This document shows positions 9,264 through 11,210 of a DNA stretch of 64,000 nucleotides, one piece after another. Source of the DNA: an uncultured Bacillota bacterium (GTDB lineage: Bacteria; Bacillota_I; Bacilli_A; RF39; UBA660); the NCBI GenBank assembly GCA_945867665.1, contig CAMBIR010000001.1:94168-158167 (forward strand). Direction: 5' to 3'. The notes under the pieces are model-generated. The model worked only from the letters and a program-made list of their open reading frames with translations. It was not told where the DNA came from and did not search any database. Numbering within the stretch: position 1 is the first letter of the stretch; the number at the start of each line of letters is the position of its first letter. Position numbers and translations under genes: made by a program.

Positions 9264-11210
9264 TTATTTAGTACTATCTGGAGAAATGGTATATGGATCT
9301 TCATATGTCCCTGTTCCTCCTGTTACGATGACGGAAGACTTAAGACGTAGGACAGGGCGCACGCCGTACGCAAAATTCGAGTTGTAGTTGTACACGCCCC
9401 GGAGAGACGGACGCCAGGAGAACGCAAGCGTCGAGGAAGCACTACGAGGAGTGGCAAACCAATAATACCCACTATTATTAATAATTGCGTAGTCATTGTA
9501 ATAACCGTCAGCTTTATTGTAAGCAGTACTAATTGTATCTCCAGTAATTTTTTGAAAGTCACCATCACTCATATTCCAAGCACTACTATTATTACATATG
9601 CCTCCGTACGCATAAGTAGAGTTACAGTAAGTAAGCGATTTTGTATTTAAATTGGCTAAATGTTTTGGTGCTCCACCAGTTGTCTCATAACTGCTACAAC
9701 TAGTACTTGCATTCCCAGAAGAATCTGTACACATACATTCTGGAGAACCTCCTGATGTAAGATAAGCAGTTCCATCATTGATATAAGCAACACGCCATCC
9801 AGAAGCATTAAATTTATCATCAGAACTATAGCAATATCCCATATCACTACTATCAACATAATTGGCATTTTGCCCTTCGCATGATTTGCCTGAACAACCA
9901 TTAGTACCTGTATATTTGACATATGAGCCTGGAGCAACCTCAGATAATTTAGTTTTACCGCTGCTAATTGTATACGGGTCTTCATACGTCCCGGTTCCTC
10001 CTGTTACGATGACGGAAGACTTAAGACGTAGGACAGGGCGCACGCCGTACGCAAAATTCGAGTTGTAGTTGTACACGCCCCGGAGAGACGGACGCCAGGA
10101 GAACGCAAGCGTCGAGGAAGCACTACGAGGAGTGGCAAACCAATAATACCCACTATTATTAATAATTGCGTAGTCATTGTAATAACCGTCAGCTTTATTG
10201 TAAGCAGTACTAATTGTATCTCCAGTAATTTTTTGAAAGTCACCATCACTCATATTCCAAGCACTACTATTATTACATATGTCTCCGTACGCATAAGTAG
10301 AGTTACAGTAAGTAAGCGCTTTAGCATTTAAATTTGCAAGATGTTTAGGAATACCTGGTGTTTTTTCATAATCACTACAGCTAGTACTTGCATTTCCTGA
10401 TGAATCTGTGCACATGCATTCAGGTGATCCGCCCGAAGTAAGGTAAGCAGTCCCATCATTAATATAAACGACACGCCAACCATTAGAATTAAATTTATAA
10501 GAAGAGCTATAACAGTATCCCATATCTGTATTGCTTACATAGTTAGCATTTTGACCTTCACATGATTTGCCTGAACAACCATTCGTCCCTGTATATTTTA
10601 TATAAGAACCCGGTGATACCGTATTTAGATATTGTTTTGTTGTCGTTGTACCACAGTCTCCATAAGTAATGGTTGTTTTCATGCTTCCACTCATCATTGA
10701 TTCGGAGTTTTCCATATTTCCATCGATATAGACAACAAACATAAATGAATAGGTTTTATTCCCGGCTACTTTTATGGTACTGGATAAAGTATTTTCTTTA
10801 ATACCTAAGTTACTAAAATTTCCTGATAATAAAGGGGTTTTACTATAATCAAAATTATTTGTTCCTGTTGTATCTTGTAATAGAGCCCATTTAAAAGAAT
10901 CGGTTCTTAAGGAAGAACTGATGGAAGTAATATTTAAACCTAGAGTGATATTAATTTCTTCGCCACCAGTATTTTTGATATTAAAATTTGCTTTAACGCC
11001 ATCTTTTAAACTTAATATAGGGCCAATATTTTTAACTTCTATACTAGGGCCATTAGTACATTCGACCGAAGAATCTTTAATGGTTAAATTTACGGTATTA
11101 TTTCCACTTCTCCATTCATACCAAGCATAAGTAAAATAAACAAGGCAACTTATAAAAAATATAAGTCCTATAACAGTGCCAATTACTTTTCTTTTGTCGA
11201 TAGGTTTCAC
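9264..11210 (-). CDS. Surface protein with two tandem Cys-rich domains ending in GVRPVL (candidate DGR target)
   Basis: A 648-aa protein starting at GTG 11210 behind AGGAGAGTGATAAC. Residues about 8-28 are a membrane anchor/signal followed by TYAWYEW, then a beta-rich N-terminal region (about 30-190) of the TasA/camelysin-like sort. Two tandem copies of a 227-aa domain follow, each with NGCSGKSCEGQ, MGYCYSS, ECMCTDSSGN and YCNS cysteine blocks and each ending in a WFATPRSASS...GVRPVLRLKSS block. That end resembles DUF6273-like, C-type-lectin-like domains which are known targets of diversity-generating retroelements. The last ~96 residues of both copies are encoded by identical DNA. Function unknown; adhesion or ligand binding is inferred. 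No reverse transcriptase is in the window. Confidence 0.75.
   Translation of the reverse strand: MKPIDKRKVIGTVIGLIFFISCLVYFTYAWYEWRSGNNTVNLTIKDSSVECTNGPSIEVKNIGPILSLKDGVKANFNIKNTGGEEINITLGLNITSISSSLRTDSFKWALLQDTTGTNNFDYSKTPLLSGNFSNLGIKENTLSSTIKVAGNKTYSFMFVVYIDGNMENSESMMSGSMKTTITYGDCGTTTTKQYLNTVSPGSYIKYTGTNGCSGKSCEGQNANYVSNTDMGYCYSSSYKFNSNGWRVVYINDGTAYLTSGGSPECMCTDSSGNASTSCSDYEKTPGIPKHLANLNAKALTYCNSTYAYGDICNNSSAWNMSDGDFQKITGDTISTAYNKADGYYNDYAIINNSGYYWFATPRSASSTLAFSWRPSLRGVYNYNSNFAYGVRPVLRLKSSVIVTGGTGTYEDPYTISSGKTKLSEVAPGSYVKYTGTNGCSGKSCEGQNANYVDSSDMGYCYSSDDKFNASGWRVAYINDGTAYLTSGGSPECMCTDSSGNASTSCSSYETTGGAPKHLANLNTKSLTYCNSTYAYGGICNNSSAWNMSDGDFQKITGDTISTAYNKADGYYNDYAIINNSGYYWFATPRSASSTLAFSWRPSLRGVYNYNSNFAYGVRPVLRLKSSVIVTGGTGTYEDPYTISPDSTK
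9313..9600. repeat. 288-bp perfect direct repeat, copy in the C-terminal domain
   Basis: These 288 bases are identical to 9994-10281 (offset 681 bases, i.e. 227 codons). Mismatches begin at once on the left (9312, 9306); on the right there is one at 9601, then a further matching stretch to about 9637 before the copies diverge. The sharp edges suggest gene conversion or recent replacement inside an older tandem duplication. Confidence 0.92.
9329..9461 (-). other. GC-rich tract, candidate hypervariable region (copy B)
   Basis: This stretch is well over 50 % G+C inside a gene and genome near 30 %. On the coding strand it uses codons rare in the neighbours (CGT, CGG, CTC, TCC, GCG, GTC) and has few A residues. 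It encodes the segment from FATPRSASST to GVRPVLRLKSS. Few A residues and NNC/NNT/NNG codons are what adenine mutagenesis of a template repeat leaves behind. Function as a DGR variable region is inference. Confidence 0.5.
9994..10281. repeat. 288-bp perfect direct repeat, copy in the first domain
   Basis: Identical to 9313-9600. The rest of the two 681-base domain units is similar but carries many substitutions, so this block is younger than the domain duplication. Confidence 0.92.
10010..10142 (-). other. GC-rich tract, candidate hypervariable region (copy A)
   Basis: Identical in sequence to 9329-9461 and with the same anomalous base composition and codon use. It encodes the C-terminal block of the first of the two tandem domains. 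Confidence 0.5.

Follow-up and report, generated by a model that had tools for sequence, protein, structure and literature searches.

Can a gene be the target of a diversity-generating retroelement (DGR), a known type of system that rapidly varies binding proteins, when its surroundings hold neither a reverse transcriptase (RT) nor a template repeat (TR)? The question is raised by a gene in the window, the 64-kb stretch of DNA analysed here (contig C1, 94168-158167; 29.4% GC), which belongs to a 90% complete draft genome of 1.31 Mb in 28 contigs (G000). The gene encodes a putative N-terminal membrane anchor, a presumed N-terminal extracellular part and two tandem ~230-aa domains, both of which end, in translation, in FATPRSASSTLAFSWRPSLRGVYNYNSNFAYGVRPVLRLKSS. 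The protein would lie at the cell surface and presumably binds something. The neighbours of the gene in the window are ordinary chromosomal genes.

The preliminary description drew attention to a GC-rich C-terminal tract in each of the two domains, and both tracts are present. The block at 9348-9442 is 60% GC, and among all 95-nt stretches of the window a GC content of at least 60% is reached only at 9342-9451 and 10023-10132. Adenine on the coding strand, described as scarce, makes up 12% of the tract versus 32-34% farther upstream in the same domain. In paralogues that lack the features of a variable repeat (VR), the tracts are AT-rich (33-37% GC). The span initially singled out, 9313-10281, corresponds to the two copies of an exact 288-bp repeat (9313-9600 and 9994-10281). 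The tract had been put at ~130 bases, which proved too long for the part that matches a template: that part is 95 bp, and the A-poor stretch continues for another 18 bp (CGTCTTAAGTCTTCCGTC) that have no counterpart in the template. Since the two tracts in the window are identical, they do not count as two independent variants.

Table 1 Features assigned in the window gene (window positions) and in the cassette on contig C7 (contig positions).
Feature	Position	Strand	Basis or remark
DGR target gene, 648 aa, GTG start	9264-11210	-	ORF list; single-domain orthologue in G005
Hydrophobic membrane-anchor segment VIGTVIGLIFFISCLVYFTYAWY, putative	11121-11189	-	Inferred from translation
Lectin-like domain 1	9963-10640	-	Family alignment
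Lectin-like domain 2	9264-9962	-	Family alignment; AlphaFold model mean pLDDT 87
Domain 1 copy of the exact 288-bp repeat, spanning VR1	9994-10281	-	79% identity upstream of repeat
Domain 2 copy of the exact 288-bp repeat, spanning VR2	9313-9600	-	Exact-repeat comparison
VR1, 95 bp, in domain 1	10029-10123	-	Matches TR C7:5755-5849 except at 19/30 A and 2/65 other bases
VR2 of domain 2, 95 bp, same sequence as VR1	9348-9442	-	TR match as VR1; 30/30 template-A sites shared
Conserved A-poor element CGTCTTAAGTCTTCCGTC just 3′ of VR1, absent from TR	10011-10028	-	Near-identical codons in nine target domains
Conserved A-poor element following VR2 on its 3′ side, not in TR	9330-9347	-	Same codon comparison
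Target gene	C7:2579-4297		C7 cassette
MSL-like ORF, diverged	C7:4330-4764		C7 cassette
MSL	C7:4742-5155		MutS_I (PF01624) E = 7.5e-7, above cut-off
Avd	C7:5145-5495		PHROG 3206 E = 2e-7; NF033474 E = 5e-8, below its cut-off
Small Avd-like ORF	C7:5476-5745		C7 cassette
TR, 95 bp	C7:5755-5849		198 bp upstream of RT
DGR-type RT	C7:6048-6989		PHROG 1423 reverse transcriptase E = 1e-71
Target gene	C7:6986-8950		C7 cassette

A DGR-type RT and a template, which the preliminary description expected elsewhere in the genome and on whose presence it made its reading depend, are both encoded on contig C7. A profile search of the genome with RVT_1 returned two RTs, one on C7 (66 bits) and one on C3. Used as a DNA query, the tract aligned over 96 bp with C7:5754-5849, next to the RT of that contig, and also picked up related tracts at C7:4095, C7:7797 and C1:166242. 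The cassette on C7 runs in the order target, two MSL-like ORFs, Avd, Avd-like ORF, TR, RT, target. Its RT finds its best PDB sequence match in 8ub7 (E = 3e-20), which we take to be the enzyme of the BPP-1 DGR complex, and reads IGFMTSQ versus IGSLTSQ at the IGxxxSQ motif. The RT and Avd ORFs are intact; Avd is assigned at scores below the curated cut-offs. As the preliminary description had anticipated, the TR encodes an Asn-rich peptide, SASSTNTFNWNPNNRNVNNNNSNNANGVRPFL. The window gene lies at C1:103.4-105.4 kb of a 237-kb contig. Because the cassette is on a different contig, 103 kb is the minimum distance between the two, so that diversification must act in trans.

The tracts match this template almost everywhere except at its adenines. 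Of the 30 template adenines, 19 are changed in the window VRs, compared with two of the 65 other positions (p = 1.9e-10). One of these two changes is at the 5′ border of the match, and the other is a T>G in the 3′ IMH. The same pattern recurs in the VR at C7:7833 (15/30 adenines, 2/65 other bases), in that at C7:4131-4228 (16/30 and 3/65; 98 bp, with one codon inserted) and in the far VR on C1 (16/30 and 7/65). Near its 3′ end the TR reads ...CGCCCATTCCTA versus ...CGCCC(A/T)GTCCTA in the VRs; the T>G is common to all five VRs and matches the difference expected between IMH and IMH*. Nearly all TR adenines (28 of 30) occupy codon position 1 or 2, mostly in AAC or AAT. The unusual base composition of the VRs follows from this arrangement, because the constant bases must match a GC-rich template while the adenines are randomised. 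No GC-rich stem of 7-10 bp, as in a BPP-1-type hairpin, lies within ~95 nt of any VR; a hairpin or cruciform 3′ of the VR belongs to a subset of DGRs and is not a universal DGR-defining feature (PMC3521204).

An ordinary family of paralogous lectin-like proteins could in principle leave similar traces, with a GC-rich tract that is horizontally acquired or codon-biased and a TR that is its decayed duplicate. All members do fall into one gene family, paralogues outside the DGR included. However, decay would have spread the differences over all bases, whereas those seen here are confined to the adenines of the TR in four distinct VRs, and in three more of the sister species G005, and the TR sits between avd and RT. 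We regard this account as extremely improbable. Instead, the window tracts are almost certainly VRs of a chromosomal DGR whose core (avd, TR, RT) lies elsewhere, combined with copying of the tract between the two domains. In the mechanism that we propose, reverse transcription of the TR RNA would introduce errors at the template adenines, and the resulting cDNA would replace the homologous tract of target genes in trans. In this way about 13 AAY codons would be rewritten in a membrane-anchored protein, where they would lie at the exposed end of one of its lectin-like domains. A single TR would serve five VRs in four genes: the two flanking the cassette, the two-domain gene of the window and another gene on C1.

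The same signature is seen in a sister species. In G005 the cassette keeps its order, with an RT 88% and a TR 91% identical to those of G000, and the two templates differ at one adenine and seven other bases. Measured against their own TR, three G005 VRs are changed at 13/27 adenines and 1/56 other bases, 15/27 and 1/56, and 12/27 and 0/56. Compared between these sister species, with one genome for each, three orthologous VR pairs differ at 52 of 81 template-A positions versus 29 of 165 others (p = 6e-13). The G005 orthologue of the window gene, on contig C41, has the same neighbours and a single domain, and its VR is more drifted (17/27 adenines and 10/56 other bases changed). A second DGR RT of G005 (C55:28831-29532) contains an in-frame TGA and has probably decayed. 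In G004, a genome of the same genus that is 88% complete, VR-like GC-rich tracts occur on C204 (locus positions 265 and 9640-9875), and a search of that genome found no DGR RT; these tracts are either orphan targets or the result of an assembly gap. Across 60 related genomes, 18 hold an RT match at E <= 1e-20, all in the same family.

Some of these loci bear on whether the tracts are instead fossils, VRs that were diversified once and are now inert, in a gene no longer targeted or served by a dead system. The far VR on C1, with its seven non-adenine changes, and the C41 VR of G005, with its ten, imply that some VRs have gone long without homing; the internal TGA in the second G005 RT and the VRs of G004, where no RT was detected, point the same way. 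The window VRs behave differently: they hold only two non-adenine changes in 65, at the edge and in IMH*, though the paralogous domains upstream of them are just 79% alike. Their constant bases thus still follow the current TR, as recent homing predicts, and the RT and Avd ORFs are undamaged. A fossil origin of the window tracts is therefore unlikely in our judgement, and we infer that the C7 DGR is active now.

How, then, did the two VRs of one gene come to be identical? VR1 and VR2 agree at all 30 template-A sites, versus 10-13 of 30 for other VR pairs. The identity extends 158 bp upstream of the TR-matching part and 35 bp past it, to give the exact 288-bp repeat, and upstream of that repeat the two domains are 79% identical. 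Since retrohoming replaces only the part homologous to the template, identity beyond that part indicates copying by recombination. A mutated tract would have been copied between the domains of the window gene by homologous recombination, through a 288-bp gene conversion or an unequal crossover. Paralogous DGR targets with different VR sequences have been reported (PMC3521204), and against these the identical VRs of the window stand out.

A comparable pair occurs in a second, separate DGR on C3, located at positions 6672-10661 of C3:24000-40000 and around C3:22226-22359. Its own RT is 54% identical to that on C7, and the element also comprises a TR, three targets, an MSL ORF and an ORF resembling Avd. 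Its two flanking VRs are identical, with 19/47 adenines and 6/90 other bases changed versus the TR, and a third VR ~8 kb away shows 20/47 and 10/87. The paired C3 targets share a 641-bp exact repeat that spans the VRs, and their 5′ parts are diverged.

The 288-bp identity could also be an artefact of assembly, in which one real VR was pasted into both domains. Repeats of this kind are handled badly by short-read assemblers, and the genome is a draft of 28 contigs. Yet the contig passes through the repeat, with unique sequence on either side, and the C3 pair has its 641-bp identity between different flanks, although the same artefact could have arisen there too. Recombination among paralogous targets is, moreover, biologically ordinary. 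We consider an artefact improbable and retain copying by recombination as the explanation of the identical pair.

Such copying may reach beyond a single gene. Each of the two DGRs contains one VR pair that is identical at every A site and has sharp borders to diverged flanks, and orthologous domains differ in the presence of a VR (G000 C11 versus G005 C38). We tentatively suggest that in this lineage hypermutated tracts regularly move between VR-bearing domains by recombination, with retrohomed variants being duplicated and recruited into further domains and new targets originating by tract transfer; all this would form a second layer of diversification in addition to retrohoming. This proposal is possible rather than probable at present, and the identical VR pairs make it a testable case of VR spread through recombination. 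The orthologous targets concerned lie between rodA/ftsW-like and dtd-like neighbours: in G005 C38 a second domain carries a VR, and in G000 C11 there is a single domain without one. From these sequences it appears that VR-bearing domains are gained or lost. The family members on C11 and C18 were considered as further VRs and rejected, as they align to the domain and not to the template, and their tracts are AT-rich or unrelated.

The A-poor extension downstream of the VRs has a distribution of its own. Beyond the template end, all nine domains that are DGR targets in G000 and G005 carry the codon string GTC CTA CGT CTT nnn TCT/TCA TCn G(T/C)C, which seven family members without a VR lack. Within CGTCTTnnGTCTTCnGTC, the nnG codon (AAG, CAG, CGG, AGG, GCG) has the look of adenine mutagenesis, which would fit an older and longer template. 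The element may be what is left of such a template, or it may serve as the homing site.

The accessory ORFs may have a link with mismatch repair. In this bacterial family, most DGR loci have an ORF resembling MutS domain I next to avd and RT; in the C3 copy (positions 9191-9640 of C3:24000-40000) the MutS_I match (PF01624, E = 3.6e-8) is above cut-off. The residues of the MutS mismatch wedge are kept as F-Y-E in the C3 copy and read F-Y-R in the C7 copy. Such a protein might keep mismatch repair away from the mutated heteroduplex.

The variable domain was modelled from domain 2 with AlphaFold (mean pLDDT 87, pTM 0.86). Foldseek aligned the model with DUF6273 phage proteins (E ~3e-4) and, weakly, with solved C-type lectins, namely the C-terminal domain of Legionella Lcl (E = 0.12) and snake C-type lectins (E > 0.7). 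Among PDB entries, the model is matched best by an IgA peptidase of Thomasclavelia ramosa (E = 9e-5). A search of the PDB found no sequence relatives of the domain, and its sequence match to PF19789 is marginal. As modelled, the fold is likely lectin-like. A viral origin was also considered: scanning IMG/VR with the target-domain alignment returned no relative, RT relatives there are 28-55% identical (most about 33%) and the neighbours are chromosomal, leaving a phage source unsupported.

Metagenome surveys find DGR targets only beside an RT, and the approach of one survey would, by its own account, miss remote targets (PMC8144416). The target in the window was spotted solely by its base composition and its likeness to known template motifs, in a stretch without RT or TR, and was confirmed when both turned up on contig C7. 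With two DGRs and seven or more target genes given over to variable surface-type proteins, this 1.3-Mb gut bacterium is probably subject to strong diversifying selection in its contacts with its host, with phage or with neighbours.

Distal and multiple VRs, Avd or MSL accessories and DUF6273-like C-terminal targets have already been described for DGRs. Targets lie more than 370 kb from the RT in Pseudogulbenkiania NH8B (PMC3521204), and remote or distal targets are known from Treponema denticola (PMC4891356) and Trichodesmium (PMC8867640). As in those three, one TR and RT serve several VRs in paralogous genes, some of them distant from the core; unlike them, the host here belongs to a MAG group of small-genome gut Bacilli, and whereas T. 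denticola uses an HRDC accessory, Avd and MutS-domain-I-like ORFs are found here. MSL (MutS-like, PF01624) is among the listed DGR accessories (PMC10053308), and the MutS domain I ORFs beside avd (E = 7.5e-7 and 3.6e-8) conform to that type, although the C7 cassette has a second, diverged MSL-like ORF preceding MSL. With the Bordetella phage BPP-1 DGR (bRT, Avd, mtd) the system shares the RT family, Avd, an A-directed TR/VR pair and the IMH/IMH* difference; BPP-1, however, depends on a GC-rich hairpin downstream of its VR (PMC3240598), while the VRs here lack a 3′ hairpin, targets are reached in trans and there are extra accessory ORFs. Targets of Faecalibacterium prophages likewise carry a DUF6273 domain with a C-terminal VR (PMC11792537), a likeness seen here in the fold matches, the sequence match to PF19789 being marginal, but the window gene encodes a chromosomal, membrane-anchored cell protein and not a phage protein. 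In Marichromatium purpuratum 984, an ORF of three tandem FGE-type paralogues holds three VRs (PMC3521204). The window gene resembles it in having several VRs in one tandem-domain ORF and differs in that its two domains are of another family, its RT is remote and its VRs are identical to each other. That identity, at all 30 template-A sites and inside a 288-bp exact repeat, is the less expected feature of this DGR.
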